The notes beneath the pieces are model-generated. The model was not told where the DNA came from, searched no databases, and saw only the letters and a list, made by a program, of their open reading frames with translations. Of a stretch of 64,000 bases of DNA, positions 25,602 through 57,357 are shown one piece after another. The stretch lies in assembly GCA_013122435.1 (NCBI GenBank), contig WYDT01000036.1:1-64000 (forward strand). Reading direction: 5' to 3'. Source of the DNA: Chloroflexi bacterium AL-N1. Lineage in GTDB: Bacteria > Chloroflexota > Chloroflexia > Chloroflexales > Roseiflexaceae. Made by a program: the position numbers and the translations under genes. Within the stretch, counting starts at the first letter, position 1; each line of letters starts with the position of its first letter.

Positions 25602-28600
25602 TTAGGTCTGGGCTGCGGTTGGCACTGACGAAGTAACAACATGTGGGTTATCGTGTGGCTCGGATACAAGCAACTCATCGGGGTTGGCATCAGGAATTTC
25701 ATCCTCCAGCCGCCACAATCGTGGATAGACGTAGCCAACAAGCGTGACCAGTACGGTCAGGAAACCAACCACGATAAACAGCAACCCAATGCCACGACCT
25801 GCGCCCACACCGATGAATCGCCCAACATTATCAGCCAGCAAACCACCGGGCATGAGCAGCGGCCCAAAGATCTGATCTGACAGCGGGCCTGCCAGCGCAA
25901 AGCCGAGTGGCATCGTGGAAAACGCGATCATCTGATTAAGCGCAAACACGCGCCCATGCAGCAGATGCGGCACCTTGGTCTGGATCAGCGCGGTGTAGCA
26001 GCCGTTGCTCAGTGCGAGCGTAAGCGTGAAACCAAAGAACCCCAGCGCAATAAACGGCAGCGAAGGTTGTACCCCGATCAGCATAATACACAGACCACTG
26101 AGCACGGAAAAGCCCAACAACCCGGACATCAGCCGCTTGGGGCCACCCCACACACTCATCGCCAACCCGCCAACCAGCATACCCGCTCCGCCGACAGCCA
26201 TCACCGAACCGAGGGTAGTGGTCGAATCAAGCGATTGCAGCACCAGCGGTGTGATCAACACCGTCATAATCGCGAGAAGGACGTTGGTTGCGGCAGCGTG
26301 TAAGAGCAACCCAACCATGCCACGATGCGAGGTGATATAACGCCAACCATTCACGATTTCCTGCATCAACGGCTCTTTGCGCTGCCATGGCAACGAGTTG
26401 GGGAAGCGCACCAGGAGGAGCGTCGTAATGGCAAAGAGGAAAGTCACAAAATCGATCAGAATAACGCCATACAATCCAATCGTTACTACGAGTGCCGCAG
26501 CAACAATAGGCGCAAGAACCTGGCTACCCGCCTCGGTCATCTGCACAATACCGTTGGCTTGCCAGAGATAGCGTTTGGGTACAAGCTGCGGAATCGCTGA
26601 TGCATACGCTGGTCGCTGGAAGGTATTACAGATCGAAGTCCAGGTCAGAATGACATAAATCAGCCAGATCTCTAGCTGACCAGTCCATAGCAAAAGGGTA
26701 AGCGCCAACGTGCCAAGACCCGCCCCCAGATCGCTGCAGATCATCACCTTTCGTCGGTCGGAACGATCAATCACGGCACCAGCAAGCGGCGAGAAGATAA
26801 TTCCTGGAAGCATCGCAAAGACTGAAATGAGGGCAAATTGAGTGACTGAGCCGGTTTGCAGATAGACCCATACCCCCAATGCAAAGCCCGTTAACCCCGA
26901 TCCGACAAGCGAGACAAACTGGCCTGCCGCGACGATCAGAAAGACACGCAACGTTGGTAGGAGCCCTGCCTGCAACGGAGGCGTGCAGGTCTGCGTTCGC
27001 TGTTTGAACGGAGATACATGATCCTGCTTTATCGCTTCTGTTGTAGTAGTTTTCTCTACGGTCGGGAGTGGTGCTGTGAGCAGATCTGCTACTTCAGCCG
27101 CGCGATGTTTGATAAAGTAATGACCAGCACGTGGCAAGACCTTCAAATGCACATGGGGGCTAAAGAATTCCCACTCTGTGTAGCGTTCCTGATAGTACTC
27201 GGTGAGTGGGTCCTTATCGCCCACAATACACACAATGGGGGCAGAAAGCGGTGTGTACTCTTTATCGGCGAATGAATAGGTAAAATAATCTTCGGCATCG
27301 CGCGAGTCCTGCCGTAGATTTTTGATGATCTGTCTGACTTCCCGATCATCGACAACATCGGCAAAACCTCCCAGTGATTTGAAGAATGTCTCATAGGTGC
27401 GGTCGCCTGACAGGCGGTCGATCTGCAGGTTATTCGCCAGAAACTCAAACAATCTACCGGGTATACGCACATTGGGGAAAGTTCCACCAAGATACACACG
27501 CTCGACGTTCACTCCATCCGCCTCCAGCAAGCGAGTGACTTCAATCGCCATCGCACCCCCAGCGCAGTGGCCGTAGATCACCAGCCGCCCCATAATGGTT
27601 TGCCTGATCTCTTCCGCACATGCCCTGGCAACCTCATGAAATAGCGCGGACTCTTCGTCTTCGCGGGTAAAATCGTGGCCTGGGAGTGCAACGGCGTAAA
27701 GCGAGTGTCCACGTGGTAGTGCGCGGGCCAGCGGCTGGTAGCTGATGGCGCTGCCACCACCATAGGGAAAACACACATACGACACAATGCGTTCCTGTGG
27801 CGATAGCGCGGGAGTGAGTTCCTGCAATAGCGCATGTTCGTCGGTACGTTCTTCGCTGAGGGCGGCCGCAAGCGCACGGATCGTGGGATGCTTAAAAATA
27901 GCGAAGACCCGCATTGCAGCGCCAAACTTGCGTACCACCCGAATGCTCTTGAAGGAGTCACCACCGAGATCGAAGAAATCATCGTCGATGCCAACGCGCT
28001 CAATGCCCAAAACCTCCATCCAGATCTGGGCTAAACATTCTTCCAGCTCGGTTTGGGGTGCGGCGTAGGTTGTGCCAAGATCAAGGCTGATCTGTTCTGG
28101 TGCTGGCAACGCAGGACGGTCAACTTTGCCGTTGGTGGTCAGTGGTAGTGCATCTAATACCACAAACGCAGTCGGAATCATCGCGTCGGGCAGAAAATCT
28201 CTGAGGAAGCCCCGCAGATTGCTGATCGAGGGCGCGGCGGTCTCGGCGACCAGATACGCCGCCAGTCGTCCTTCGCCGCTACCATGCTGGTGATAGGTGA
28301 CGGCAGCACGCTGCACGTCAGGATGCTGATTGAGCACCGCTTCTATCTCGCCCAATTCGACCCGCACGCCCCGAATCTTGATCTGATGGTCGATCCGTCC
28401 ACGCAATTCGATAGCCCCATCAAGACGGTAGCGCGCCACATCACCGGTGCGATACAGCCGCATACCAGGGTGCATGCTGAACGGATTGGGTAGAAATTGT
28501 GCGGCGGTGGCAGCGGGGCGGTTGAGATAGCCATCGGCCAGACCAGGACTGCTGATATAGACTTCGCCATACACACCGATGGGCGTGGGATGCAACTGTT

Positions 28601-31127
28601 CGTCGAGCATATGGATCTGGGCGTTGTCAATTGGTCGACCAACAGGCACATGGCTCTGTTCAGGCAATAGCGCATTTACCGGATAGTAGCTCGACGTCAT
28701 CGTGCATTCGGTAGGACCATACTGGTTGACCAGTTGCACCTGTGTGCCAAAGAGTGTTTGAGCACTACGACAATCGTCCGACCGTAAGTTCTCACCACTC
28801 AGCAACATGAGTCGTATGGAGGGAATTATCATCGGTGGCTCAGCGGCTTCCACCAGCCCTCGCAGCAGGGTTGGCACGATACTCAACAGACACGTGACAC
28901 CCTGCCACCGCATGGTCTGGAGCAGTGCCGACGGATCTTTAGCATCCTCTTGCTCGACCAGCACGACTTTGGCACCAACCGACAATGGCCCAAGCAGATC
29001 GCGTACAGACGCATCAAACGAGAGTGTGGCAATCTGCAATACCGTATCTGACACGCTGAGTGCATACTGTTCTGCGAGAAAGGCCAGGTAATTGGTCGCA
29101 CCACGGTGCGTGCTCAACACACCCTTGGGCTGGCCCGTCGACCCAGACGTGTGGACAATGTACGCCAGATTTTCCGCTGTGGCAGTCGTAGGCAGATTAC
29201 TTTTATCCTCTGCACCCCACAGTTCTTCATCGCGATCAAGGCATATTTTTTCACCTACAAAAGGGGGCAGTCGTGTCTCAAGCGTCTGTTGCGTCAGGAT
29301 CAGGTGTGACTGAGCGTTTGCGAGGATGTAGGCGAGACGGGCCGATGGATAATCCAGATCGAGCGGGAGGTAGGCACCACCGGCCTTGAGTACAGCCAAC
29401 ACACTCACGACCATCTCGAAGGAACGCTCCACACAAATGCCCACACGCACTTCTGGCCCGACACCACGCTGCTGCAACACCCACGCTAGTTGGTTTGCAC
29501 GTTGGTTCAGGGCAGCGTAGCTCAACTGTTGGTTGTTCAGGACTAGTGCGGTGGCGTCAGGAGTGCGCTCGGCCTGCTCCTCGAAGAGTTGATGAATACA
29601 CCAAACCTGTGGGGCGTTTGTCGCAGTGTCATTCCATGTGCGGAGCAGATCTTGTTCATCAGACGTGAGCAACGAGACGTCGTATACATGTTGTGTGGGA
29701 TTTGCACTGAACTGCGCTGCCTGAACGCAAAAGTGTTCTGCCATGCGCTCAATCGTCGCTGCATCGAAGAGATCGGTGTTGTACGTAAACAGGCCAATAA
29801 TGCCGTCGGCAGTTTCTTCCATCGAAAGCGAGAGATCGATTTTGGTGATATGAAAATCAAATCCGATGCTGTGCGACGTAATACCTGAGAGTTGCAATGG
29901 TGCGGTTGGAGCATTGTGCAGCGTGAACATCACCTGAAAGAGTGGGGTATACCCAAGGTTGCGTTCTGGCTTTAATTCCTCGACCAGACGCTCAAAGGGC
30001 AATTCCTGGTGTGCAAATGCGCCTAACGCCATTTCGCGTGTTTGTCGCAAAACCTCCTGAAAAGTCGGATTGTCTGTAAAACGTGTTCGCAGCACCAGTG
30101 TGTTCAGGAAAAAACCGATCAAGTCCTCAAGTTCCGCGTGGTCACGCCCTGTAATGGGTGAACCAACGAGGATATCACGTTGGCCACTGTAGCGTGCTAA
30201 CAGCGTGGTATATATCGCCAGTAAAGCCATAAAAAGCGTACACCCTTCGCGCCGTGCGATGTCCTGAAGTTGTTTGGTCATTGCGGCAGAGAGAGTGAAT
30301 ACGTGATGTGCGCCGCAAAAGGTTTGCACGGGTGGACGCAGACGATCCGTTGGAAGATGCAGAATCGTTTCGACATCGGCAAGTTGCTCTTTCCAGTACA
30401 CCATATGCTGGTTGAGTCGTTCGCCTTGCAACTCACGCCGTTGCCATGCCGCATAATCTCCGTATTGAATGGGCAACTCAAGCAGTGATGGGGATTTGTT
30501 TGCAGCAAAAGCATTGTAGAGGGTTGAAAGCTCTTTGAAAAACACACCACCTGACCAGCCATCCGAGATAACGTGGTGCATCGTCACCAAAAGCACATGG
30601 TCTTGTTGATCAAGCCGTACCAGACAGATACGCAGCAGCGGGCCGCGCGTCAGGTCAAAAGGGCAGGCAGCCTCCTCAGCAGCCAATTGTGCGGTGGCCG
30701 TTTCACACGCATCACTGGGAAGGCCGCTGAGATCGTAGAGCACCAGCGTGGTTGTCGGCTTTGATGCGACGACCTGAACCGGCTGTTCGTCGACCTCGAC
30801 AAAGGTGGTCCGCAGAATCTCATGCCTGTGCAGGATCGTGTTGATGGCCCGCTCGAACACAGAGATAGTGAGATCGCCAGAGAGACGGAGCGCGTCGGGC
30901 ATGTTGTAGGCGGCATTCGCGGGTTCGAGCTGATCGAGAAACCACAATCGTTGTTGTGAAAATGACAGCGGCGCCGGATCGTCTGTGCCTCGTCGTGGAA
31001 TAGTCACCGTTTCCGCAGTCAACGTTGCATTTTTCGTTTTCGCACTTCGCAGTCGTTGCTCGAGCAAGGCCCGTTTGGCTGCAGAAAGCTGAGTAGCTGT
31101 TTTTTTATCCTGGGGCGATTGGGTCAC
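25602..31127 (-). CDS. terminal NRPS module fused to an MFS exporter (C-A-PCP-TE-MFS)
   Basis: 1841 residues; GTG start with AAGGAGG 5 bases upstream overlapping the stop of the preceding NRPS gene. Domains: C about 50-490 (HHVISDG 184-190, intact); A about 510-1005 (TSGSTGQPKG, YRTGD, NGKVDR; specificity residues read D-A-R-S-L-S-Q-M-T, which I cannot assign); PCP about 1025-1090 (LGGDSF, Ser1058); thioesterase about 1110-1350 with nucleophile elbow GHCAG, so Cys1188 instead of Ser, with Asp1304 and His1336; then about 40 linker residues and a 12-TM MFS transporter (about 1390-1810) resembling EntS/DHA3 exporters. Third gene of the NRPS operon: it adds the last residue, releases the peptide and probably exports it. 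A transporter covalently joined to a megasynthase is rare and would tether assembly to the membrane. Confidence 0.9.
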   Translation of the reverse strand: MTQSPQDKKTATQLSAAKRALLEQRLRSAKTKNATLTAETVTIPRRGTDDPAPLSFSQQRLWFLDQLEPANAAYNMPDALRLSGDLTISVFERAINTILHRHEILRTTFVEVDEQPVQVVASKPTTTLVLYDLSGLPSDACETATAQLAAEEAACPFDLTRGPLLRICLVRLDQQDHVLLVTMHHVISDGWSGGVFFKELSTLYNAFAANKSPSLLELPIQYGDYAAWQRRELQGERLNQHMVYWKEQLADVETILHLPTDRLRPPVQTFCGAHHVFTLSAAMTKQLQDIARREGCTLFMALLAIYTTLLARYSGQRDILVGSPITGRDHAELEDLIGFFLNTLVLRTRFTDNPTFQEVLRQTREMALGAFAHQELPFERLVEELKPERNLGYTPLFQVMFTLHNAPTAPLQLSGITSHSIGFDFHITKIDLSLSMEETADGIIGLFTYNTDLFDAATIERMAEHFCVQAAQFSANPTQHVYDVSLLTSDEQDLLRTWNDTATNAPQVWCIHQLFEEQAERTPDATALVLNNQQLSYAALNQRANQLAWVLQQRGVGPEVRVGICVERSFEMVVSVLAVLKAGGAYLPLDLDYPSARLAYILANAQSHLILTQQTLETRLPPFVGEKICLDRDEELWGAEDKSNLPTTATAENLAYIVHTSGSTGQPKGVLSTHRGATNYLAFLAEQYALSVSDTVLQIATLSFDASVRDLLGPLSVGAKVVLVEQEDAKDPSALLQTMRWQGVTCLLSIVPTLLRGLVEAAEPPMIIPSIRLMLLSGENLRSDDCRSAQTLFGTQVQLVNQYGPTECTMTSSYYPVNALLPEQSHVPVGRPIDNAQIHMLDEQLHPTPIGVYGEVYISSPGLADGYLNRPAATAAQFLPNPFSMHPGMRLYRTGDVARYRLDGAIELRGRIDHQIKIRGVRVELGEIEAVLNQHPDVQRAAVTYHQHGSGEGRLAAYLVAETAAPSISNLRGFLRDFLPDAMIPTAFVVLDALPLTTNGKVDRPALPAPEQISLDLGTTYAAPQTELEECLAQIWMEVLGIERVGIDDDFFDLGGDSFKSIRVVRKFGAAMRVFAIFKHPTIRALAAALSEERTDEHALLQELTPALSPQERIVSYVCFPYGGGSAISYQPLARALPRGHSLYAVALPGHDFTREDEESALFHEVARACAEEIRQTIMGRLVIYGHCAGGAMAIEVTRLLEADGVNVERVYLGGTFPNVRIPGRLFEFLANNLQIDRLSGDRTYETFFKSLGGFADVVDDREVRQIIKNLRQDSRDAEDYFTYSFADKEYTPLSAPIVCIVGDKDPLTEYYQERYTEWEFFSPHVHLKVLPRAGHYFIKHRAAEVADLLTAPLPTVEKTTTTEAIKQDHVSPFKQRTQTCTPPLQAGLLPTLRVFLIVAAGQFVSLVGSGLTGFALGVWVYLQTGSVTQFALISVFAMLPGIIFSPLAGAVIDRSDRRKVMICSDLGAGLGTLALTLLLWTGQLEIWLIYVILTWTSICNTFQRPAYASAIPQLVPKRYLWQANGIVQMTEAGSQVLAPIVAAALVVTIGLYGVILIDFVTFLFAITTLLLVRFPNSLPWQRKEPLMQEIVNGWRYITSHRGMVGLLLHAAATNVLLAIMTVLITPLVLQSLDSTTTLGSVMAVGGAGMLVGGLAMSVWGGPKRLMSGLLGFSVLSGLCIMLIGVQPSLPFIALGFFGFTLTLALSNGCYTALIQTKVPHLLHGRVFALNQMIAFSTMPLGFALAGPLSDQIFGPLLMPGGLLADNVGRFIGVGAGRGIGLLFIVVGFLTVLVTLVGYVYPRLWRLEDEIPDANPDELLVSEPHDNPHVVTSSVPTAAQT

Positions 31128-31137
31128 TAGTTCCTCC

Positions 31138-34100
31138 TTAGTAACGTTCGCTCAAAAGTTGTTCGGCTTCTTCCTCAGACAACTCCTCCAATTCCGCAAG
31201 GAGTACCTCTTCGACCACCTCAGCTAACTCGAACACAGTGGTGGCTTCAAACAGGCTGCGTAGGGGCAGTTCAATCTCAAAGGCATCCCGAATACGCGAC
31301 ACAACGCGCATAGCCAGCAACGAGTGACCACCCAGATCGAAGAAGTCATCGTAGACACCGACCTGATCGACACCAAGCAGGGTAGACCAGATCTCAGCAA
31401 CGACTTCCTCAGCGGTCGAACGAGGCGCGACGTAGTCAGCCGCCAGCTCGGGGCGAGTGCTGTCAGGGATGGGGAGTGCCTGTCGATCCAGTTTGCCATT
31501 GACGTTGAATGGCAGTGCGGCCAACGGTACAAATGCAGACGGAAGCATATAATCAGGGAGTTGTTGGCGCACAAAATCGCGCAACTCACTCGATGAAGGT
31601 GGACCGTTATACGTGACGATGTAGGCAATGAGACGTTTGTCACCTGGCACATCCTCGCGGTCCACCACTGCGACATCAGCCACATCAGGGTGTTTGCGGA
31701 GCACTGCTTCGATTTCGCTTAGCTCAATGCGGAAACCACGAATCTTGACCTGGCCATCGCTGCGCGCGATAAACTCAATGGTGCCATCGGGCAGGTAGCG
31801 CGCACGGTCACCTGTCTGATAGAGCCGAGCACCTGCATCAGTGCTGAAGGGGTGCGGCACACATCGTGCAGCAGTCAGCGCAGACTGGCCCAGGTAGCCA
31901 CGGGCCAGACCAACGCCGCCCAGATAGAGTTCACCAATCACCCCTGGTGGTACGGGCTGCAGTTGTTTATCGAACACATAACTCTGTGTGCCTGCGAACG
32001 GGCGGCCAATCGGCACCAGTCGATCATCAGAAACCATCACATCAGTGGGCTCAAAATAGGTACTATCAATCGTCGCCTCGGTCAATCCATAGGAACTCAC
32101 CAACCGTGTTTCCGACCCACATAATTGGCGTAGTGCACGGTATTCACGCATAAACCACGTGTCGGAACCGACTGCAAGCACCCGAAAGGTGTCGAGTCGC
32201 TGGCTAGTTTCGTCGAGATATTGCATCAGGTTGAGTATCACAATCGGCACAAACTCGGCACAATCGACCTGATGCTGTATGATGAGTTGGTAGAGTTGTT
32301 TTGGATCAAGCAGGAATGTCGGTGGACAGAGCACTAGCGTGGCCCCCGAACAGAGCGCACGCACGATATCGCCCGTACACACATCAAAGGCGATGCTGGC
32401 CATTTGCAGATGACAACTGGTTGCGCTGCGTAGTTGGTACGCTGCCTCCCATGCCTGATAGGCGTTGGCGAGGCTCTCGTGCGTAACCATCACGCCTTTG
32501 GGTTGGCCGATCGACCCCGAGGTGTAAATGATATACGCCAGGTTGTGACCTGTCACACTGTTTGGCAGGGCCTCATCGCTATGTTGTGCAATCGTCGGCC
32601 AGTCCTGGTCAAGTGCAACCATATTGGTGCTCTCGGGGAGGCTGACACGATGACCGTGCAACGTGAGCACGAGATCAACCTTGGCATCATGCAGCATAAA
32701 CGCCAGCCGCTCACGGGCATTGTTGGGGCTGAGTGGCACATACGCACCTCCGGCTTTGAGCACCCCCAGCAACGCGACGACCATCTCTACCGAGCGGTCG
32801 AAGCAGAGGCCCACCCGCACCTCAGGACCAACCCCACGCAGACGCAGGTAGTGTGCCAACTGATTTGAGCGCCGCTGCAGCATGACATAAGGCATCTCAC
32901 AGTCCTCGTAGACCAGTGCAATCTCATTCGACGGATGCATGACCTGTTGTTCAAATAGCTGATGCACCAAGCCTGTCAACGGTAACGGGATGGACGAGGC
33001 ATTCCATTGCTCAAGAATCTGCGTTCTTTCGGTTTGTGTGAGCAAGGGAAGATCGCTAATATGCTGGTCGGGATGCGCGACGATGCCTTCAAGCAAGTTC
33101 TGGAAGCAGGTGGCCATGCGCGCTATCGTGATCGTATCGTACAGATCGGTGTTGTACTCCAACCAGCCATACAGTTCCTCATCAGTGTCGGTGACACCAA
33201 GCGTCAGGTCGAACTGGGTCGTGCCATTGCTCAGCCACATTGGGCTCACCTGGAGTCCCGGAAGCCCCAAAGCTGCCACCGGGTCGCGCTGGAGCATAAA
33301 GAAGACCTGGAAGAGCACATTGCGGCTCATATCGCGCGTTGGTTGGAGTTCCTCCACAATCTTCTCGAAAGGCAGGTTTTGGTGGGCATAAGCATCTAAA
33401 GCGGTCTCGCGCACCTGCCACAGGAGCTTCCGGAAGCTCCCCCCGGAACATCGCGAACGAAGCACGAGTGTATTCACAAAAAAGCCGATCAGCGCTTCAA
33501 CTTCGGAGCGGTCGCGGTTGGCAATCGGTGAGCCGACCACAATATCGTTTTGACCGCTGTAACGAGCCAGCAAGACCTGGAAAGCAGCCAGCAGGATGAT
33601 GAAGAGGGTGGCATCTTCCTCCTGTGCCAATGCCTTCACCTGGTGTGTCAGTGTAGTCGGCATAGTGAAGTTGAAAGTTGCGCCGTTAAACGTCTGTAGC
33701 GGCGGGCGCGGGCGGTCGGTTGGTAGCTCCAGCGCCGTTGGCGCATCAGCAAGCTGGTTGCGCCAGTAGGCTATGTGGTGGTCGAGTTGTGCGCTATCGA
33801 GCCATGCGCGCTGCCATACTGCGAAGTCGGGGTATTGAAGGGGCAGCGGTAGCAATGGTGACGGCTTACCAGCACAAAACGCACCATATAACTCGGTCAA
33901 CTCTTTGCTTAATAGCTCAATGGACCAGCCATCCGAGATAATGTGATGCATCGTGAGCACCAACACGTGATTGGTCTGGTTCAAGCGTAGCAAGGTTATG
34001 TAAAGCAATGGGCCGCGCGTCAGGTCAAAGGGTCGGCTGACACACTCCTGTAGAAGAGCTTCCGGAAGCTCACTCAGATCAAGTATGGATAGTGGAATAT

Positions 34101-37100
34101 TTATTTGATCATGAATAATCTGCTGTGGTTGACCATCGGTGGCGTCAAAGGTTGTTCGTAGCGCTTCGTGCCGCGCAACGATGGTATCAAGACTCTGTTG
34201 GAGCACCGCAACGTTGAGTGGCCCCTCCAGGCGTAATATCAGGGCGATGTTGTAGAAGGGGCTCTGAGGCATAAAGCGGTCGAGGAACCACAGCCGTTCC
34301 TGAGCAAACGAGAGCGGCAGTGCCGCCGTACGATCTGCTGGTTGAAGCAGCGGGACCCTCTCAGCAGGCGATTGAAGTGTCTCAAGTTGTGGAGCAAGTG
34401 CGGCGATGGTGCGCGCCTCAAAGAGCATGCGTAGGGGCAGATCGACGCTGAGTTCGTCGCGGATGCGCGAGAGCACCTGCATTGCCAGCAGCGAATGACC
34501 GCCAACGTGGAAAAAATCATCATAGATACCGACCTGCTCTCGCTCCAGAATCGCTGACCAGATCTGTGTAATGGTCTGCTCCATCTGCGAACGGGGTGCA
34601 ACATAACGCTGTGTCATGTCATGTTCGACTCTGTCTGGCGCGGGCAATACACGGCGGTCGATCTTGCCGTTGGGTGTCAATGGCAGCGTTTGTAGTGGAA
34701 TAAAAGCTGATGGCACCATATACTCAGGAAGTTTTTGTTGCAAAAAGGCACGTAGCTCTGATGTCAATGGCAGATCACCTGCGCCACTCTGCACATACGC
34801 AACAAGCTGTTGATCGCGGCGTTGCGTGGTGTGTGCAACGACCACCGCTTGCTGGATAGCAGGATGCTGACTCAAAACGGTCTCGATCTCACCTAGCTCG
34901 ATGCGGTAGCCACGCACCTTGACCTGATGATCGAGCCGCCCCAGGTACTCGATGCGGCCATCGGCCCGGTGGCGTGCCAGATCGCCAGTGCGGTACATGC
35001 GTGCGTCAGCTTGTGTGCTAAATGGGTTCGGCAGAAAGCGCGCAGCCGTGAGATCAGCCCGATTACGATACCCCCACGCGAGGCCATCGCCACCAATATA
35101 CAATTCACCCGGTATGCCGATGGGAACTGGTTGGAGGTGCTCGTCAAGAATGTAGGTCTGTGTGTTCGCAATCGGGCGTCCAATCGAGATGGCATCATCG
35201 GTAACTTGGTCCATGGTTGACCAGATCGTGGTTTCGGTAGGGCCATACATGTTCCACACGGTTCTGGTGCGTGAGATCAGTGCACTGGACACATCGGAAG
35301 GCAGAGCTTCGCCGCCACAGAGGATGGTGAGAGCAGGATCGCCCTGCCATCCGGCACTAAGCAGCAAACGCCACGTTGCGGGCGTCGCCTGCATCATAGA
35401 GGTGCGGGTGCGCTCCATTGTCGCAGCTAGCTGGATACCATCGGTCGCCGTCACACGGTCGATCAGCACCATGCGTGCTCCGGTCAGTAATGGCAGATAC
35501 AACTCCAGACCAGCAATGTCAAAGGAGACAGTGGTCACAGAGAGCAGCGTGTCTTGTGCATCCATCCCTGGTTTCGCACACATTGCCGTGAGGAAGTTGA
35601 CCAGTGCGCGATGCGGAATCTGCACGCCCTTGGGTTGGCCGGTCGACCCCGAGGTGTAGATGATATAGGCGAGGTAATCCGCTGTGATAGGTACGATGGG
35701 TGGTGTCGGTGCTTCAGTGTGATAGGTTACCGCATCCAGACACACGACCTGAGTTTGCATATCTGACCAGGGTGTTTTGAGATGTGTCTGGGTTAGGACA
35801 AGTTTTACCTGAGCATCATTCAACATCCCTGCCAAGCGTTCGGTGGGATAGGTGGAGTCGAGTGGGACATACGCACCACCAGCCTTGAGCACGCCCAGCA
35901 GCGCAATGACCAGATCGGGAGAACGCTCGACGCACACGCCAACCAGATCAGCGGGTTGGACTCCCAACTTCTGGAGATACCGCGCCAGTTGGTTGGCACG
36001 TTGGTGTAGTGTTTTGTAGGTGAGTTGTATTGATCCATATTCGAGCGCAATAGCATCGGGAGTACGATCAGCCTGTTCCTGCAGTAATGCGTGTACAGGT
36101 TGCTCCCGTGGGTAGGATTTGTTCGTCCTGTTCCACTCGATGAGCACCTGTTGGCGTTCGGTGACTGGTAGCAGTGGCAGGTCATCAAGCCGCAGATCAG
36201 GGTTGTCGGCGATGCTTTCCAGCATAGTCAAGAAATGATCGTGGAAGCGACTGATGGTTGACTCGTCAAATAGATCGCTGTCATATTCAAGGGACACTTC
36301 TCTGCCATAAAAACCAAGCGTCAGATCAAACTTGGACGTGCCGGGATTCAATTCCTGGACAAACTGGATAGCTCCATCAGATATCTCTGCAGTACCAGTT
36401 TGTACGGTTGGCAGGCTAAACACCACTTGAAAAAGCGGGTTGTGACTGAGATTCCGTTCGAGGTTCAGCGTTTCGATCAGTTTTTCCAGCGGCAGATCCT
36501 GATGTGCATAGGCTTCCAGCGCCATATGTCGTACACTACCGATGAAAGCGCTACATGATAACTCGCCATCCAGCCGGATGCGTAGTGGCAATGTGTTGAT
36601 AAAGCAGCCGATCAGCTTTTCGACTTCCTGACGATGTCGTCCCGCAACTGGTGTGCCAATGACCAGATCGGTTTGCCCTGAGTAGCGATATAGTAGCGTG
36701 TAGAATGCGGCGAGCACGGTCATAAACATCGTGGCATGCGCCTGTCGGCTTAATTGATCCAGCCTGGCATGGAGTGCTGTAGGAAAAGGGCGTAACTGTA
36801 CCGCACCGTGATACGCTTTCACCGCCGGGCGTGGGCGATCGGTGGGCAGGTCGAGTAGGGGCACAGGATCTTTGAACTGAGCTTGCCAGTAGGCGAGATG
36901 ATGTGCCAGTATGTTCCCGTCGAGGTGTTGGTGTTGCCACGTGGCGAAATCAGCATACTGAATGGGCAGCGCAGGTAGCGCAAGCGTTTGATCGGTAAGC
37001 AGTGCATTATAGATCACGCCTAACTCTTCGACAATCACGCTGATCGACCAGCCATCGCACACGATATGATGCATCGTAATCAGCATCTGGTATGACTCAT

Positions 37101-38826
37101 CGGCGACGCGCAGCAGCAGCACACGCAGCAGTGGCCCCTGGTCTAATGCAAAGATTTGACGGGCGTGTTCTAGTAGCAACGTGGTCTGTTGTGCCTCCGA
37201 TTGGTCACGTGTATCGACCATCTCAACAGGGATGTACACGTTTGGTTGGATGACCTGTTGTGGTTGGCCATCCCTCAGCACAAAGACTGTTCGCAAAACT
37301 TCATGGCGCAGCACAAGCATGTGGACACTTTGCTCCAGAAGTGCTCCATCGATTGCTCCAGAGAGGCGAAAGAGCGCTGGCAGGTTGTAAAATGGGTTGG
37401 CAGAGTCAAGCTGGTTGAGAAACCAGAGACGTTCCTGCGAAAACGACAGCGGAAAAGCCAGCGTGGCACTACCGCGCGCCACAGCAGAGATGGGTTGCTG
37501 CCCAGTGAAACCATTGCCACGCTGGCGGAGTTGCAGCATCAGCAGTGCCCGTCGTTGTGGTGAAAGTTCTGCAACAACCTCCAGGATAGCCTGCTTCTGC
37601 AGCACCTGATCGGAGGACTCATCGTTGGTAGGCTGATCGCCGATGTGTGGTGCAGGCGCGAGATCCTGAAGATAGTTTTCAAAGGTGTCGATGCTCAGAC
37701 CACCGACAAACGCAAGCGCAGTATTCCGTGACTCGTCCGAGAGTCGCTCATACAACACGCGGTTGGACAACACGTTCTGTAGCGTTTTTTGCCAAGGCTC
37801 AATGTTTTGTGGTGGAATGATTGGCACAGGCAGACTGCGTACATCGAATTGTTCTTCATACTGCTGGATCGGCTGGACTGGCAGGGTGTAATCAACACCA
37901 AGTTTAGCTTCAGGGAGGCCACCCACGTGACTGGCCAGCACAGGAACACCACGCAGCATGGCGTCGATCACGACCTGGCCAAAAGACTCACCCCACAGTG
38001 AGGGAACCACCAGAACACGTACCTGTGCAAACAATGCATTCAAGTCGTCCATGGGTGGAATAATCTGCATGTTGGGGAGTGCTCTGAGCGCGGCCAGATC
38101 TGCGTCGGTCGTGGCCCAGGTTGGCACAGCGGCGAACGGTGTGGCAGGAAACAGACGGGCCAGCGCAAGAAAGATCGAGATACCTTTGATCGCCGAAGGG
38201 TTGATCATAGTGACAGCACCTGCATCAAAGCGCGCCAGATGAGGGAATGGACCATTACCATAAGAGGGAAACGGTATCACCGTCGAGTCGAAGCCGCCCC
38301 AGCGTTTGATGTAATCCTGGAGGTAACGGCTCACCGCAAGAATGCCCGCTACCCGATGCAGAAGTTGGGTCTTGTCAGGATCGACATAGAAGCTTGCGGG
38401 TCCAAACGGCAGTGTCGCCTGGGAATGCGCTATGAGCACCACACGTGAGGGGGTGGCTTCCAGCGCAAACTCAACCAGCAGAAAGGTACGATCCTCCGAA
38501 ACCAGCGTCCAAGCGGGTCCAAACTCATGGATAAGATGAAAGAGCATGCGGGTGTACACCTGAAAGTCGCTGAGGATGGCATACACCTTGACGCCCCTGT
38601 GTATGTAGACGACGACATCTGGATTTGCTTCTAACACCTCGATCCCACGGGCGTCGAGTTCGGCCAGCAATTCGGGGTGGTTCGTAATAGTGCCGCTTGT
38701 GCCTGGAGCAACCACCCAGCAGGTATGCCCCCGTTCAACCAACCCCTCTGCGAGCAGTCGATTGGCTTTATGTGCGCCCCCTGATGACAACAGATAGGTT
38801 AATGTTTGAATAAGTAGGATCTTCAT
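31138..38826 (-). CDS. GT4 glycosyltransferase fused to a two-module NRPS (GT-C-A-PCP-C-A-PCP)
   Basis: 2562 residues. Residues 1-395 are a GT-B glycosyltransferase of GT4 type: the GGAHKANRLLAEGLVERGH donor-side loop, SAIKGISIFLALARLFP, VPSLWGESFGQVVIDAM (E-x7-D in place of E-x7-E) and HVGGLPEA. Then C1 (about 455-890, HHIVCDG at 586-592), A1 (about 905-1395; code D-I-L-Q-L-G-M-I-W, glycine-type), PCP1 (GGHSLL, Ser1444), C2 (about 1505-1935, HHIISDG 1627-1633), A2 (about 1950-2450; code D-V-G-E-L-V-S-I-D, resembling ornithine/basic codes; core A3 reads TSGSIGQPKG) and PCP2 (Ser2502). No epimerase or methylase domain. Middle gene of the operon: 17 bases after the loading gene and 10 bases before the terminal one. 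The GT presumably glycosylates the peptide; sugar and site unknown. Confidence 0.9.
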   Translation of the reverse strand: MKILLIQTLTYLLSSGGAHKANRLLAEGLVERGHTCWVVAPGTSGTITNHPELLAELDARGIEVLEANPDVVVYIHRGVKVYAILSDFQVYTRMLFHLIHEFGPAWTLVSEDRTFLLVEFALEATPSRVVLIAHSQATLPFGPASFYVDPDKTQLLHRVAGILAVSRYLQDYIKRWGGFDSTVIPFPSYGNGPFPHLARFDAGAVTMINPSAIKGISIFLALARLFPATPFAAVPTWATTDADLAALRALPNMQIIPPMDDLNALFAQVRVLVVPSLWGESFGQVVIDAMLRGVPVLASHVGGLPEAKLGVDYTLPVQPIQQYEEQFDVRSLPVPIIPPQNIEPWQKTLQNVLSNRVLYERLSDESRNTALAFVGGLSIDTFENYLQDLAPAPHIGDQPTNDESSDQVLQKQAILEVVAELSPQRRALLMLQLRQRGNGFTGQQPISAVARGSATLAFPLSFSQERLWFLNQLDSANPFYNLPALFRLSGAIDGALLEQSVHMLVLRHEVLRTVFVLRDGQPQQVIQPNVYIPVEMVDTRDQSEAQQTTLLLEHARQIFALDQGPLLRVLLLRVADESYQMLITMHHIVCDGWSISVIVEELGVIYNALLTDQTLALPALPIQYADFATWQHQHLDGNILAHHLAYWQAQFKDPVPLLDLPTDRPRPAVKAYHGAVQLRPFPTALHARLDQLSRQAHATMFMTVLAAFYTLLYRYSGQTDLVIGTPVAGRHRQEVEKLIGCFINTLPLRIRLDGELSCSAFIGSVRHMALEAYAHQDLPLEKLIETLNLERNLSHNPLFQVVFSLPTVQTGTAEISDGAIQFVQELNPGTSKFDLTLGFYGREVSLEYDSDLFDESTISRFHDHFLTMLESIADNPDLRLDDLPLLPVTERQQVLIEWNRTNKSYPREQPVHALLQEQADRTPDAIALEYGSIQLTYKTLHQRANQLARYLQKLGVQPADLVGVCVERSPDLVIALLGVLKAGGAYVPLDSTYPTERLAGMLNDAQVKLVLTQTHLKTPWSDMQTQVVCLDAVTYHTEAPTPPIVPITADYLAYIIYTSGSTGQPKGVQIPHRALVNFLTAMCAKPGMDAQDTLLSVTTVSFDIAGLELYLPLLTGARMVLIDRVTATDGIQLAATMERTRTSMMQATPATWRLLLSAGWQGDPALTILCGGEALPSDVSSALISRTRTVWNMYGPTETTIWSTMDQVTDDAISIGRPIANTQTYILDEHLQPVPIGIPGELYIGGDGLAWGYRNRADLTAARFLPNPFSTQADARMYRTGDLARHRADGRIEYLGRLDHQVKVRGYRIELGEIETVLSQHPAIQQAVVVAHTTQRRDQQLVAYVQSGAGDLPLTSELRAFLQQKLPEYMVPSAFIPLQTLPLTPNGKIDRRVLPAPDRVEHDMTQRYVAPRSQMEQTITQIWSAILEREQVGIYDDFFHVGGHSLLAMQVLSRIRDELSVDLPLRMLFEARTIAALAPQLETLQSPAERVPLLQPADRTAALPLSFAQERLWFLDRFMPQSPFYNIALILRLEGPLNVAVLQQSLDTIVARHEALRTTFDATDGQPQQIIHDQINIPLSILDLSELPEALLQECVSRPFDLTRGPLLYITLLRLNQTNHVLVLTMHHIISDGWSIELLSKELTELYGAFCAGKPSPLLPLPLQYPDFAVWQRAWLDSAQLDHHIAYWRNQLADAPTALELPTDRPRPPLQTFNGATFNFTMPTTLTHQVKALAQEEDATLFIILLAAFQVLLARYSGQNDIVVGSPIANRDRSEVEALIGFFVNTLVLRSRCSGGSFRKLLWQVRETALDAYAHQNLPFEKIVEELQPTRDMSRNVLFQVFFMLQRDPVAALGLPGLQVSPMWLSNGTTQFDLTLGVTDTDEELYGWLEYNTDLYDTITIARMATCFQNLLEGIVAHPDQHISDLPLLTQTERTQILEQWNASSIPLPLTGLVHQLFEQQVMHPSNEIALVYEDCEMPYVMLQRRSNQLAHYLRLRGVGPEVRVGLCFDRSVEMVVALLGVLKAGGAYVPLSPNNARERLAFMLHDAKVDLVLTLHGHRVSLPESTNMVALDQDWPTIAQHSDEALPNSVTGHNLAYIIYTSGSIGQPKGVMVTHESLANAYQAWEAAYQLRSATSCHLQMASIAFDVCTGDIVRALCSGATLVLCPPTFLLDPKQLYQLIIQHQVDCAEFVPIVILNLMQYLDETSQRLDTFRVLAVGSDTWFMREYRALRQLCGSETRLVSSYGLTEATIDSTYFEPTDVMVSDDRLVPIGRPFAGTQSYVFDKQLQPVPPGVIGELYLGGVGLARGYLGQSALTAARCVPHPFSTDAGARLYQTGDRARYLPDGTIEFIARSDGQVKIRGFRIELSEIEAVLRKHPDVADVAVVDREDVPGDKRLIAYIVTYNGPPSSSELRDFVRQQLPDYMLPSAFVPLAALPFNVNGKLDRQALPIPDSTRPELAADYVAPRSTAEEVVAEIWSTLLGVDQVGVYDDFFDLGGHSLLAMRVVSRIRDAFEIELPLRSLFEATTVFELAEVVEEVLLAELEELSEEEAEQLLSERY

Positions 38827-38843
38827 GTATTTCCCATCATCAT

Positions 38844-41800
38844 TTATGCCAATTGACCAACATCCGCCAAGGCAGTCTGGACTTCCGCATCCGTCATTGT
38901 GTTTATTTTTTGCAGAAATGGCCTAATCTCTTCAACCGCCGTTTGCTCGATAGAAAACAGTTCAATCGCTTTCGCCGTTTCGGCAACCGTGGGTACAACG
39001 CTCATCAACACGGAGAGTGGCACCTCAACGTGCAGGCTGGTGCGAATCCGTGAGACGACCTGTGTGGCCAGCAGTGAATGCCCACCGAGTTCGAAGAAGT
39101 TATCGTGGATACCCACCGCCGGGAGTTTCAGCACCTGTGCCCATACATCACCCACCAGTGTTTCGACAGGTGTGCGTGGTGGCAGGAAGGTACCTCGGTC
39201 GGGCCGGGTGCGATCCGGTTTTGGCAAAGCACGCAGGTCGATCTTGCCATTTGGTGTGCGTGGTAACGTGGGAAGCACCACAAAGAACGCAGGTACCATG
39301 TAGCTCGGAAGCTGTTCCTGAAGCATAGTCCGCAACTCACGGATTAGCTCTGTCTGTGTGCTTGATTGTCTGTCAGATGCACTCGGCACAACATACGCCG
39401 TGAGACGAGTATCATCAGTAGCGTCTGTATGGGCCACCACCACCGCCTGCTGCACGGCTTCGTAGCGCTGTAGAGCGCTCTCGATTTCGCCCGGTTCAAT
39501 GCGGTACCCACGGACTTTGACCTGTGTGTCAAGGCGTCCCAGAAACCCAATAGTGTCATTCGACAGTCGGTATGTGCGATCACCGGTGCGATACAACCGT
39601 TGCCCTGGCCGTTCACTAAACGGATGGGGGACAAAGCGTTCGGCGGTCAACGCCGGGCGCTGGAGGTAGCCGCGGGCCAGTCCAACGCTGCCGATAAACA
39701 GCTCTCCTGGTATGTTGGTTGGCACAGGCTGCATATGTGAGTTGAGTAGATAGACCTGGGTATTGTCAATCGGGTGGCCAATAGAGATAGTTTCTTCTAA
39801 GACGGCGTCTGGTGTCAGCGTGGCACATACGGTGGTCTCTGTCGGACCATATGCATTCACAAAGCGCCGATTGGTCGACCAGCGCGCCACAATATCTGCG
39901 GTGCATGCCTCACCTGCTGAAACAATGGTGTGGAGCGCAGGATAACCAGCGTCGGGAAGGATGGCCAGGACGGGGGGCGGCAAGGTCACAGCGGTAATGG
40001 CATAGGTCTGAAGCAGGTTCACCAGATCTGGTCCGGGCATGAGCGCGGCCTGTCGTGCCAGAACGAGAGTTGCCCCGACACCAAAGGTTGTGCAGACTTC
40101 CGAGACCGTTGCATCAAAACTAAATGAAGCAAATTGCAACACGCGACTATCAGAACTGAGTTGGAACGCACCGATTTGTGCCTGCGCCAGGTTGCCTAAT
40201 CCCCGGTGTGCAACCGCTACACCCTTGGGTTGCCCGGTCGATCCTGAGGTGTAGATAACATACGCCAGATGATCGACAGCGCAGTGTTGCACTGGATTGT
40301 AGAGCGCCTCCTGTACAAGCGCCTCCTGCTGCTCATCGAGCACGATGATGTGGTTACCCTGCAAAGGTAGCCGGTCACGCAGATGTGCTTGAGTCAATAG
40401 CACCGTCGTCTGGGCATCATCGATCATATAGGCGATGCGGTCAGTAGGATACGCCGGATCAAGCGGAAGATAGGCACCACCAGCTTTGGCTATCGCCACC
40501 ATACCGACAATCATTGCTGGCGAACGCTCGACACACAGCCCGACAATCGTCTCAGGTGTTACCCCTCGCTTGGTGAGGTAATGCGCCAATTGATTGGTCT
40601 GTGTGTTGAGTGTCTGATAGGACAGCACTGTATCCTCAAAGACCAACGCGATGGCATCGGGCGTTCGTGCGGCCTGTGCTTCAAATAGAGCAGCAAGAGT
40701 TTGTGGTCGGTAGTCACGCTGTGTGTCATTCGTGGCATACACAAGGTGGTATTGTTCTGCGTCGGTAAGAATTGACTGTTGTACCAACGGACGATCTGGA
40801 TTAGCCATCAGACTACGGAGAAAAACGAGATAGTGGTCACGTAGCTGGTCCATGGATGTTGGGTCTAATGTGGCAGTGTTATAGTGCCAGACTGCCTGTG
40901 TCGCCTGTTCATCAATGACGAGCACGAGTTCGGCATCAGCAGGCGGTTGCGCTGTACCGTCGGTCCATGCGACGTGCACAGGTATAGCGGTGGATGTGTC
41001 GCGTAGTACGGGGTAGCGCAGGACCATATCGCGGAGAAATGTTCGATGCTGATTTGTGCTGCTGATTGCCTGCTTAACCGCTTCGAGGGACTCAGGCCAC
41101 ATGTGCTGGCTGTCTAACTGCACATGCAACGGCACAATAGGTGTAAAGACGTTTGAGAGGATCGCTTCTGGAAATCGTTGAACTGGTCCATGGAGACCAA
41201 GGTCAAACGTGCAGGTATCACTCAATCGTGCGAGGAAGGTGGCAAAACTCGCAGTCAGTGCACAAAAGCGTGCCTCGGGCTGATGGTATGGTGCCAAGAA
41301 TGCCAGTAGCGTTGCATCTTCACTATAATCGATATGTTGATAGCTGCCTGTCTCTTTCGTTTTACGATATGTGGCAGATGGTATCGTGATGGGCTCCAAT
41401 GCCGACAGTCGTTGTACCCAGAACGCCTCAGATCGACATACGGCTTCGTGGGTGGCTGTCAGCCGCTCCATAATCGCTGGGTCTGGTTGCGGTAGCTGGT
41501 TACCTTCGTGCAACATGTATTGTTCTGCCATCTCGTGCAACGAGAGAGGGTGCCCTGCGATGGTGGCGACCTGGTGGATCACAGCCTGGCCGTCGGTGGT
41601 GGCAATAACAAGTTCATCAGCGGTCAGGCGTATGATCGTGCCAGGCGGTACGTCGACAGGCTGCGCTTGTACAGAAAGCTCGCGTACAATCAGTGCATCA
41701 TCACCCACCATCAGCTTTGGTAACCCAATGAGATTGGGGTAATCTCCAAAGTCGAGTGCGCGTACGAGCGCAGCAATCTCGCTGGTGGGCCGATCCCACT

Positions 41801-42425
41801 GTAACGCACAGATCGCCTGAGGCCGTTGTCTATTGCGAAAAAAAGAACGCTTGGTGAGATCTTGTGCGAGGGGAGTAATCTGATCTGTTGCTAGATCACC
41901 TATCAGCGCAGAAAACGACTGGATGGCCGCGTCGTAGCATTTCACGTTTAGGGTTTGTGATGTTTCAGTGGGATCGACGGGAATGATCGTTTGTTTCAGC
42001 ATGTTCCCCGCATCAACTTTTTCTGCCATCTCATGCCAGCTAATACCGTGTTGCGTTTCCTGGTGAAACAAAGCCCAGAAGGTCGCATGGCTACCCGCAT
42101 AACTCGGCAATAGCGCATCGTGGTAGTTGATCGCGCCCTTGAGTGGTAATGTCAGGATACCTTTGGGCACAACGAAAGGATAGGCAATGCTGAAGAGGTA
42201 TTCGAACGGTTGTTGCTGAAGAAAGGCCACCACATCGTCGTCTGGCGGCATGGAAGGTATATCGTGTTCTTCGGCCCACCTATGCAGCGCCCGGTCATGC
42301 GAAACGATGCCACATAACTGATGTCCGTACTGTAACAACATCTGTGCACAATGCATTGACAGTGTGCCTGAGCCAAAGATAACACAGCGAAATGACGGCA
42401 ATATTGAGTTCATGCTTTGTGCCAC
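38844..42425 (-). CDS. NRPS loading protein: formyltransferase, truncated C, A, PCP
   Basis: 1193 residues (GTG start; ATG four codons later is an alternative). Residues about 10-300 are a formyltransferase of the methionyl-tRNA formyltransferase fold (CVIFGSG, INYHDALLPSYAG with Asn100/His102, EKVDAG with Asp138), as in the F domain of LgrA. Residues about 325-555 are only the C-terminal lobe of a condensation domain; the N-lobe with HHxxxDG is absent. A domain about 570-1070 (TSGSTGQPKG; code D-A-S-T-V-A-A-V-C, aromatic, Tyr/Phe-like), PCP about 1090-1160 (GGHSLL). With no functional C domain this must be the initiation module, producing an N-formyl aromatic aminoacyl-PCP from a formyl-folate donor. 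First gene of the operon; promoter probably within 42426-42870. Confidence 0.9.
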   Translation of the reverse strand: MAQSMNSILPSFRCVIFGSGTLSMHCAQMLLQYGHQLCGIVSHDRALHRWAEEHDIPSMPPDDDVVAFLQQQPFEYLFSIAYPFVVPKGILTLPLKGAINYHDALLPSYAGSHATFWALFHQETQHGISWHEMAEKVDAGNMLKQTIIPVDPTETSQTLNVKCYDAAIQSFSALIGDLATDQITPLAQDLTKRSFFRNRQRPQAICALQWDRPTSEIAALVRALDFGDYPNLIGLPKLMVGDDALIVRELSVQAQPVDVPPGTIIRLTADELVIATTDGQAVIHQVATIAGHPLSLHEMAEQYMLHEGNQLPQPDPAIMERLTATHEAVCRSEAFWVQRLSALEPITIPSATYRKTKETGSYQHIDYSEDATLLAFLAPYHQPEARFCALTASFATFLARLSDTCTFDLGLHGPVQRFPEAILSNVFTPIVPLHVQLDSQHMWPESLEAVKQAISSTNQHRTFLRDMVLRYPVLRDTSTAIPVHVAWTDGTAQPPADAELVLVIDEQATQAVWHYNTATLDPTSMDQLRDHYLVFLRSLMANPDRPLVQQSILTDAEQYHLVYATNDTQRDYRPQTLAALFEAQAARTPDAIALVFEDTVLSYQTLNTQTNQLAHYLTKRGVTPETIVGLCVERSPAMIVGMVAIAKAGGAYLPLDPAYPTDRIAYMIDDAQTTVLLTQAHLRDRLPLQGNHIIVLDEQQEALVQEALYNPVQHCAVDHLAYVIYTSGSTGQPKGVAVAHRGLGNLAQAQIGAFQLSSDSRVLQFASFSFDATVSEVCTTFGVGATLVLARQAALMPGPDLVNLLQTYAITAVTLPPPVLAILPDAGYPALHTIVSAGEACTADIVARWSTNRRFVNAYGPTETTVCATLTPDAVLEETISIGHPIDNTQVYLLNSHMQPVPTNIPGELFIGSVGLARGYLQRPALTAERFVPHPFSERPGQRLYRTGDRTYRLSNDTIGFLGRLDTQVKVRGYRIEPGEIESALQRYEAVQQAVVVAHTDATDDTRLTAYVVPSASDRQSSTQTELIRELRTMLQEQLPSYMVPAFFVVLPTLPRTPNGKIDLRALPKPDRTRPDRGTFLPPRTPVETLVGDVWAQVLKLPAVGIHDNFFELGGHSLLATQVVSRIRTSLHVEVPLSVLMSVVPTVAETAKAIELFSIEQTAVEEIRPFLQKINTMTDAEVQTALADVGQLA

Positions 42426-42934: not shown

Positions 42935-45900
42935 TTATCTGGCAGCAAAAACTGCTGTTGTGCGTGCAGGGACCGTAAATGTTCCGGATGTACGATCAAA
43001 TGTTGCGGTACGTACCGTCTGGTCTGCAGAGCGACGTTGCAATGGATGTAACCCAAAGCGCTGTCCCTGCAATGAGTCGTCTGTGAACTGCTGCTCTGTA
43101 TTACTTGCATTGAATACAACAATAATACGAGAGTACCAGCGATCCAGATTTGCGCCTACCGTATCATCAAGACTCATCACGATTACGCCAGGTGTCTGAT
43201 CAGGACCACTGCTGAGGAAACTGACGCGCTGCTGGACATCCTCTGCTGTGCGTAGACGGAACAGTGGTGAACTCTTACGCAGCAACAACATTTCGCGGAA
43301 ATGCGTTGCGTTGGTCAGGATATCCGCACGATCCGGCTGCAACGCAGGGTTCGCCAGGATCGGCTGCATGACCGGCCAGTTGGGAGAGTTTTCGCCCGGC
43401 GGTAAGCCGACGCCCCAGTTGTTCGACTCGTAGGTGAAGTCCAGTCGGTTGAACCAATCGCCCGAGTCGTAGCTGTTGCGGTCAAGCGACTTCGAACGAA
43501 GCATGTCCTGACCAGCATGGAAGAATGGCACACCCTGTCCCAGCATAACGATGCTAATACCCATGTTTTGCATTCTGACACGGTCTGCCATCGGGAGATC
43601 CATCGGTGCCTTGAGTTGTAGCGCATCGAAGAAGGTTTCGTTGTCGTGCGCTGCAATATACGTAATGTCCTCCTGCGGATCACTCGTGTATCCGGTGGGT
43701 GAGCCGTTGTAATCAATGTCGGCACCTGTCACCAGATTACCATGGCGATCCACCAATTGGTATGCGCTCAGGTTTCCGGTCAAGCCAACCTTGATGCGAT
43801 CCATATGTTGGAGCAACAGATTCCGCTGTGCATCGGGAGTGCCCTGGTCAGTGTCATTGGGATCGTAGTAGAGCCCGGTAGCGAAACCTTGTTCCTGCAA
43901 ACCACTGAAGGGACCACCCCCACGTACGGCGTCGCGCAATCGGTCGTTGAAGACACCAATGCCAGTGCCGCCCATGTTCAACTGAGTGGCGTTGACACCA
44001 CGCTGGTTGTTCTCGACCTCGCCAAAGTTCCACCCCTCACCGTAGACATAGATCTGTTTACCGTCGACACCATGCTCCTCAATGGTCAGCGCATCAAGCG
44101 CCTCACGAACTTTGATCATGTCGTCCTTCATGTGATGACCCATCAGATCGAAGCGGAACCCGTCAACCTTGTAAGCAGTCGCCCAGGTGACCAGCGAGTC
44201 GATCATCAGTTTTTCCATCATCGCGTGTTCAGTGGCAGTATTCTCGCAGCAGGTACTCTTGGCAACATTGCCTTCCTGATCGAGTCGGTGATAATACCCT
44301 GGCACCACTTTGTCGAACACCGAGTTGTCACCCTGACCACTGGCGTTGGTGTGGTTGTACACGACATCCATCACCACCCGCAGTCCGGTACGGTTGAGCG
44401 AACTCACCATCTCGCGGAACTCAACGATACGCGTTGGGCCATCAGGATTTGTCGAGTAACTACCCTCTGGGGTTGTGAAGTGGAATGGATCGTAGCCCCA
44501 GTTGAAGCCATCACGATTGCGTACTTCTTCAGTAGCCCGCTGTTGTTCGTCTGAGTCTGGTGGATAGGTTGCGAGGAGATCGTAGTCGGGTGTTTCCCAC
44601 GTCGATTTGTCCTCGTTGACAGTAGCAATGTCAAAGGCCGGGAGTAGGTGAATATGCGTCAATCCAGCTCTGGCAAGCGATTGCAAATGCCGCATACCAT
44701 CGCTGCGTTGAGTAAAGGCTTTGAAGGTGCCACGATATTCCTCGGGGACCGTCTCGTCATTGATGCTAAAATCGCGCACGTGCAACTCGTACAGCACAAT
44801 GTCTTCGGGAGCCTCAAGCACAGGTTTGCGAACCCGATCCCAGCCACTTGGTTTGAGATTGACATCGTTCAGATCGACAATCTGGCTGCGGGTGCTGTTC
44901 ATCGACAGGCTGACTGCGTAGGGGTCGGTGACCAGGTTTTGTTCAACCTGGCCTGTCGATGGGACATAGACTTCGACCTCGTAAAGGTAGTACTTCCCAT
45001 CCCACGCCGCATCACCGAGGATGCTCCATACACCATTTTCGGCGTCCCCATCCATCTCATAAACGGTGCTAGTGGTATCCGGGTTTGAGTCATCAAAGAT
45101 GTGAAGTTTGACTGAGCGGGCAGTAGGTGCCCAGACTTTTATCGTGGGGATACCACCATCGTAAATGACACCAAGCTCGCCATCGTATGTATAGAGCGCG
45201 TCCAGCACTCCAGGGATTTGCAAACTCGTCGCATCGACCATCACATCATTACTGTTGGTGGCTGAGACGGCGATCTGTCCCTTCAAAATGTCCGGTATCT
45301 TGTCCAGATCAGCAGCGGCGATCTTAAGCGCAGTCAATTCCGCCAGGTGGGGGAACCGCTCACGCAATTCGTCGCTGAGACCAGCCGCATCATAGGTGAG
45401 TTCAATCGATGCACCACCAGCGATGACGCCATCCTCAATTGCCAGGGCCCCATCGGGGTCGTAGTGGAGGGCGTAACTATTGGCCGCACCATCCTCGATG
45501 GGCCATGCAATGGTGTCTTCAGAGACCCAGTGAGCACGTTGCTTGGAGAGATCGCCCTGACCGCCTGTATCACAATCTGACGAAATCGGCAGGAGATAGC
45601 TCGGGGTTGCCTGAATAACCCAGATCTCGTTGCCATAGGTTTCCAGATTGAGTTCCTGATCTTCCGGCAGGTCTTTTTCATCACCACGATGGAGAATATA
45701 GCTCAGTGTTGTTGCATTATCTGCCAGTGGCACCTCGAAGTAGACGCCGAAACGGTCGGTACCGGCTGATTTGATCGGTTGGTTCCACTCGGTTGGCTCA
45801 GCAGCACCTGACCAGACGTGCAAGCCCCAATAGTCGGCAAAATTATCGCTCTCAAAATCGCCATAATCCCCGTCAGGTCGGTGATAATGAATAATGGCCA

Positions 45901-57120: not shown

Positions 57121-57357
57121 CAAAAGCACTATATGATTTTATGAAATATTAATAAAACGAGCATATAATATACGCCTATGAAGAGAAGCTGTACGGATTT
57201 TTCAAAGTAGTGTGAATTATATGAATTTTAGTTAAGACATGCTTATTTGGGATCTGTTTCTAGTATTCCCATCTGCTATAGGGTGAATCAATGTTTGTGT
57301 GCCTTATTTTTGTATGGCTTTCAGACACTTTTATGCCTAGAATTAAAGGAATACATT

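Follow-up and report, generated by a model that had tools for sequence, protein, structure and literature searches.

When a glycosyltransferase (GT) is built into a nonribosomal peptide synthetase (NRPS), at which point of the assembly line does it act? Nonribosomal peptides usually receive their sugars late, from an enzyme apart from the line. The question is raised by a locus of Chloroflexi bacterium AL-N1 (Roseiflexaceae), where a GT domain stands immediately ahead of the first condensation (C) domain of a three-gene line. The window, i.e., the whole stretch of 64,000 nucleotides analysed (positions 1 to 64,000 of contig WYDT01000036.1), harbors these genes in tandem on its minus strand (38844–42425, 31138–38826, and 25602–31127), as open frames coding for proteins of 1193, 2562, and 1841 residues, respectively; the host genome counts 8.16 Mb in 50 contigs, with 100% completeness and 5.46% contamination. 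According to Pfam, the first protein carries a formyltransferase (F) domain, a probable C-domain remnant (below the cut-off), an adenylation (A) domain, and a peptidyl carrier protein (PCP); the second is a GT4-C-A-PCP-C-A-PCP protein; the third is a C-A-PCP protein ending in a thioesterase (TE) and a major facilitator superfamily (MFS) transporter. We read the GT as an enzyme that probably glycosylates the starter residue on its carrier, before the first condensation, and assign this reading a probability of about 0.6.

An earlier note on this DNA had described three co-directional genes separated by 17 and 10 bases, with a ribosome-binding site on a preceding stop; open reading frames (ORFs) and sequence bore this out, the site being that of the third gene (TAAGGAGG, on the stop of the second). 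Its domain order was likewise recovered by Pfam, to which the C-domain remnant of the first protein has to be added. It is from the short gaps alone that we infer a single transcript; promoter- and terminator-like sites around the line showed no excess over shuffled sequences.

The glycosyltransferase slot

The GT domain (37627–38826, minus strand) opens the second protein, directly after the starter carrier PCP1 (38946–39155) and ahead of the first C domain (36112–37461). Its AlphaFold2 model, built with 24 relatives, has a pLDDT of 89.4 and a pTM of 0.87, and the best Foldseek matches are glycogen synthase, sucrose-phosphate synthase, PimA, MshA, and BshA (9–18% identity among the best 50). 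Residues His134, Lys214, and Glu280 are invariant in the GT alignment; thus, the domain combines a GT-B fold with conserved donor-site residues, as expected for a GT4.

The same domain was used as the key to search for relatives. Among 60 related genomes, strong matches were retrieved from the window's own genome, from G001 (same family), from all six genomes of the Herpetosiphon group (g11), and from G041, G046, and G048. A scan of named genomes yielded 32 GT loci in six phyla (Chloroflexota, Bacillota, Acidobacteriota, Myxococcota, Actinomycetota, and Planctomycetota); in Planctomycetota no NRPS adjoins the GT, so that the slot itself occurs in five phyla, and the TE-MFS line end was found in three. 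At E ≤ 1e-60, at least 16 of 394 genomes in the family of Paenibacillus curdlanolyticus and at least 8 of 400 genomes of the window's phylum possess a match; the genome counts for GT, F, and TE-MFS are lower bounds, three or four candidates having been scored per genome. Hence, the earlier view of an organization new of its own is not supported in that form. The GT slot and the TE-MFS end recur; a fused F domain was found in the window alone among 301 Chloroflexota genomes searched. Chance and mis-assembly were rejected as sources of the layout because it is met again elsewhere, both with and without the fusions.

Gene order was examined in 46 regions. A carrier lies directly upstream of the GT4 in 33 lines (in G001, a GT1 stands in between). 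Most GTs are free genes (34 of 45 rows of the comparison), whereas 11 are fused to a C domain, which follows the GT in 11 out of 11 cases; on the GT tree, the fusion state changes at least seven times across the 45 rows. Both observations argue for glycosylation on the carrier. The minimal form, A-PCP / GT4 / C-A-PCP-TE-MFS with an intact GT frame, was found in 16 lines, namely in six out of six Herpetosiphon-group genomes (A-PCP of 653–682 residues, free GT of 442) and in ten Paenibacillaceae. An Anaerolineales line (L088, 9980–11255) shows the same order, but its GT and final gene are spread over several frames, through either decay or sequencing error. In two Actinomycetota (L081 and L082), the GT4 comes after a small free carrier (ORFs of 165 and 117 residues), itself preceded by a C-A-PCP-TE-MFS protein.

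The starter is readable in 30 of the 33 GT4 lines: 20 have the code DAST[VI]AAVC (Tyr-type), nine an FkbH domain, and one a Ser-type code; those of L074, L081, and L082 could not be read. All 30 are predicted to carry a hydroxyl, a second feature that, together with the position of the GT4 behind the starter carrier, points to the carrier-bound starter as its substrate. The second module of the minimal lines reads DLTKIAHVS or a near variant, presumably for an Asp-like residue; this being the only other residue, the predicted hydroxyl would lie on the starter. FkbH, which loads glycerate directly from a glycolytic intermediate, scored above the NCBIfam cut-off in five out of five proteins tested (G001, L061, L063, L072, and L075). 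In four Paenibacillaceae lines (L116–L119), FkbH-PCP replaces A-PCP at the line start, as judged from a custom profile, and the order in G001 is FkbH-PCP / GT1 / GT4-C-A-PCP / C-A-PCP-TE-MFS. The L116 line is followed by a gene of unknown function and then by two genes that score below NCBIfam cut-offs, one galactokinase-like and the other for a short sugar-1-phosphate nucleotidyltransferase; L117 has ORFs matching them in size and order, and the nucleotidyltransferase is common to L116, L117, and L119. These sugar genes and the fold shared with MshA, PimA, and BshA are consistent with sugar transfer within the line.

Two successive glycosyltransferases occupy the slot in L063 (Paenibacillus curdlanolyticus, GT4 and GT4) and in G001 (GT1 and GT4), perhaps serving a disaccharide. 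In L063 and L072, an internal C-FkbH-PCP module precedes the GT, and the L063 line begins with a fatty acyl-AMP ligase; a lipid–glycerate–sugar unit is conceivable in L063, because such a start is combined with an FkbH module ahead of the GT.

On the GT tree, from which L083 and L088 (pieces shorter than 300 residues) were left out, the window GT clusters with the six Herpetosiphon-group GTs (support 97/97), and that of G001, a member of the window's own family, falls in the opposite half, among most FkbH lines. Two changes suffice for the Tyr/FkbH starter label on 28 rows, while 200 shuffles needed 8.3 on average and never fewer than five. Starter type thus appears to follow the GT tree, which supports an acceptor on the starter carrier.

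Free GTs terminate in a helix (e.g., LPAEQRALLAQRLKQRR) resembling the one that leads into the C domain of the protein that follows (LSPERRALLAQRLRQRQ); in the window, its counterpart LSPQRRALLMLQLRQRG lies between GT and C domain (37516–37566, minus strand). A profile was built from 23 helices, either pre-C or from GT-C linkers and including the window's own, and its threshold was set at the 99.5th percentile of scores from 4300 shuffled tails; as it was trained on helices of the same families, it scores likeness to a pre-C helix and not independent origin. (A former profile from ten Paenibacillaceae helices was discarded as too narrow, having matched part of the tails and no GT1.) Of 27 free GT4s that follow a carrier, 25 carry the helix at the C-terminus; the two exceptions are L083, a contig-end piece, and a half of the L088 gene, which is broken. 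It was detected in none of 22 control GT4 proteins from related genomes.

In other lines, the slot is filled by an unrelated enzyme. Searched with the window TE-MFS region, 394 Paenibacillaceae genomes gave at least 22 loci, spread over 16 of these genomes; 13 belong to GT4 lines and nine to others, and TE-MFS alone was thus rejected as a GT4 marker. (In the 60 related genomes, the eight full-length TE-MFS matches coincide with the eight GT4 loci, the remaining ones covering the MFS part only.) In all seven lines examined of those nine (L139–L145), the order is A-PCP / GT1-type glycosyltransferase / C-A-PCP-TE-MFS. These GT1s, assigned by Pfam to EryCIII-like_C and Glyco_transf_28 in the four run and by phmmer in the other three, are unrelated to GT4 and yet sit in the same place. 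Five out of six GT1s scored (five from these sister lines and that of G001) carry the pre-C helix. The helix on free GTs and the occurrence of an unrelated GT1 in the slot both argue for a sugar transferred on the line.

Loader, modules, and line end

The F domain (41826–42395, minus strand as for all domains of the line; Pfam, 67 bits) is followed by a formyl transferase C-terminal subdomain (41511–41825). Alignment with ArnA revealed that the catalytic N-x-H and the distal D are retained; the first gene therefore shares with LgrA an F domain fused to A-PCP and its catalytic N, H, and D, which agrees with decoration of the starter on its carrier. The next 250 residues or so (40731–41471) look like the C-terminal lobe known from condensation domains, with a Pfam score of 22.7 bits, below the cut-off of 30.6; no HHxxxDG motif was found in this remnant, and it is presumably inactive. 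Another Chloroflexota genome (G667) encodes an F relative of 358 residues. Given its distribution, the F domain looks like a private addition of the window's lineage.

Above the Pfam cut-offs are Formyl_trans_N, Formyl_trans_C, AMP-binding, and PP-binding in the first gene; GT4-type families and two each of Condensation, AMP-binding, and PP-binding in the second; and Condensation, AMP-binding, PP-binding, Thioesterase, and MFS_1 in the third. The core motifs of C, A, and PCP domains and a terminal TE identify the line as an NRPS, with one substitution in the A3 core motif. The Ser motif is present in the four carriers, the others being PCP2 (34387–34581), PCP3 (31207–31416), and PCP4 (27843–28037), and HHxxxDG in the three full C domains (the second at 33007–34326, the third at 29640–30983).

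Specificity codes were read by alignment on a GrsA ruler, and the residues assigned to them are predictions; the Tyr-type strings were not found in an open literature search. A1 (39231–40691) has DASTVAAVC, A2 (34657–36090) DILQLGMIW, A3 (31507–32952) DVGEAGSID, and A4 (28119–29591) DARSLSQMT, which we take to be Tyr-type, Gly-type, Orn-like, and of unknown residue, respectively; read by eye, A3 gives DVGELVSID, differing at two positions. The last module of G001 has the same code as A4. These readings agree with the aromatic, Gly-like, and Orn-like residues predicted earlier, the starter now being sharpened to Tyr-type, the code that 20 of the 33 lines have.

The TE (27078–27797) has the motif GHCAG, with Cys in the nucleophile position, and precedes the MFS domain (25848–26942). 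A Cys was found in 32 out of 32 TEs read in fused TE-MFS lines (23 lines, L081 and L082, and the seven sister lines), whereas TEs not fused to an MFS domain have Ser (L070, L078, and L080).

Proposed route and alternatives

From gene order, domains, catalytic motifs, the recurrence of the slot, and the helix on free GTs, all directly visible in the sequences, we infer a route covering substrates, on-carrier timing, sugar, release mode, and product export. A1 would activate Tyr and load it on PCP1, and the fused F domain would formylate its amino group. The GT4 heading the second protein would then move a sugar from a nucleotide sugar onto the phenol of the starter on PCP1, and the C domain right after it would couple the N-formyl-O-glycosyl-Tyr to Gly. 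An Orn-like residue and then a fourth one would be added, and the Cys thioesterase would release or cyclise the chain beside the fused MFS exporter. The line is best read as an F-extended, GT-fused, four-module form of a GT-slot NRPS family, and as the most elaborate one seen.

Some observations weigh against this route. No carrier-ending protein lies directly upstream in 13 of the 45 GT rows, three of which have the GT fused to a C domain (L080, L084, and L077, the last lying at a contig edge). The pre-C helix also occurs in two of ten free GT4s without a carrier, and the tail on free GTs may be a relic of gene fission. Near-copies inflate both the clustering and the shuffle tests on the GT tree. 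Moreover, the starter codes of the GT1 sister lines are DVWQFCLVF in six out of seven (unknown) and DILQMGMVW in one (Gly-like), and thus a strict hydroxyl rule is broken. Lastly, the A3 core motif is TSGSIG in place of the usual TSGSTG (T to I).

The GT might instead be an ordinary off-line tailoring enzyme acting on the released peptide, with operon position and fusions as mere history. The frequency of free GT genes and the usual timing of peptide glycosylation speak for it; the conserved slot, the C domain behind every fusion, the helix, and the unrelated GT1 speak against it, and we regard it as unlikely. Should the GT act on free Tyr or another free acceptor before loading, with A1 selecting the glycosylated form, the small free acceptors of MshA and BshA would offer a precedent; nevertheless, FkbH starters, loaded directly from a glycolytic intermediate, would require an on-carrier step, and the A1 code remains an ordinary Tyr-type one, so that this appears very improbable. 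About equally slim, or slightly slimmer, is the chance that the window line is degenerate or not made, a recent F domain or the altered A3 motif leading to an inactive line or a shorter product: the substitution in A3 and the single F fusion among the Chloroflexota would fit, while the frames are open over 16.8 kb and the carrier Ser, the HHxxxDG motifs, and the F residues are intact.

Returning to glycosylation of the carrier-bound starter, a broader and more tentative proposal, to which we give slightly less than even odds, is that NRPS lines possess a general glycosylation slot, with a GT recruited at least twice, from the unrelated families GT4 and GT1, docking via a borrowed pre-condensation helix, and glycosylating Tyr, Ser, or glyceryl starters on the carrier before the first peptide bond. 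In that case, the first condensation and the Cys-TE-MFS line end may both take the sugar as an entry ticket. If the slot is indeed built in, starter carrier / GT with pre-C tail / C-A-PCP-Cys TE-MFS would be a signature for genome mining, and the GT tail could serve as a docking tag for on-line sugar addition. The timing of glycosylation would be addressable with two small Herpetosiphon proteins, the free GT and the A-PCP loader. As the Cys thioesterase is fused to an MFS domain, one may also ask whether release is coupled to export.

Neighbouring genes and known systems

The domains for formylation, glycosylation, release, and export are all within the synthetases, as had been proposed: no tailoring gene was found among the flanking ORFs examined by Pfam, many small ORFs lying outside that test, and the flanks examined appear unrelated to the line. 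Shared extra tailoring genes were also discarded for the family, since the comparison of flanks (antisense frames removed) left only a phosphopantetheinyl transferase (PPTase) and a few general families across groups. A PPTase gene adjoins the Herpetosiphon line, L062, L066, L073, and L124; none was found among the window flank ORFs examined. Just upstream of the line (42935–48805, minus strand), translation reading indicated a secreted alpha-amylase/pullulanase-like protein of 1956 residues. A second line lies on the other strand (55330–57120 and 57232–64000, plus, on to the contig end at 68925), with a fatty acyl-AMP ligase-like protein followed by acyl carrier protein (ACP)–ketosynthase–acyltransferase–ACP–aminotransferase–C–A and further domains; we assume that it resembles the start of iturin/mycosubtilin-type lipopeptide synthetases.

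In agreement with the earlier note, the open literature search retrieved no described pathway with this organization, nor a GT-slot line with a known product. In the available parts of PMC3368417 (2011), Herpetosiphon aurantiacus is credited with an 'NRPS 4, Haur_03313-Haur_3318' of two NRPS modules, 13.3 kb, for a dipeptide; by module count and gene number, it is probably the L059 copy of the three-gene form, which differs from the window line in having two modules, a free GT, and no F domain. The available parts of PMC4902038, PMC3368417, and PMC6210107 describe no GT within the line and no product. FkbH glyceryl loaders replace the Tyr-type A domain ahead of the slot in nine lines and are absent from the window itself.

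MshA, BshA, and PimA have the GT-B fold in common with the window GT, and act on free acceptors or lipids. Cys thioesterases are known in NRPSs, e.g., in obafluorin synthetase, which shares with the window the Cys for Ser in the nucleophile motif; the MFS fusion is a feature of the window's family. As far as we know, the linear gramicidin synthetase LgrA has neither a GT nor an MFS domain. The likeness to LgrA lies in the formyltransferase fused ahead of the loading A-PCP; the window F domain is nevertheless the closer to ArnA, with E-values of about 1e-18 for ArnA and of 4.6e-7 to 2e-6 for LgrA, and, unlike that of LgrA, is extended by the Fmt C-terminal subdomain and then by the C-lobe remnant.

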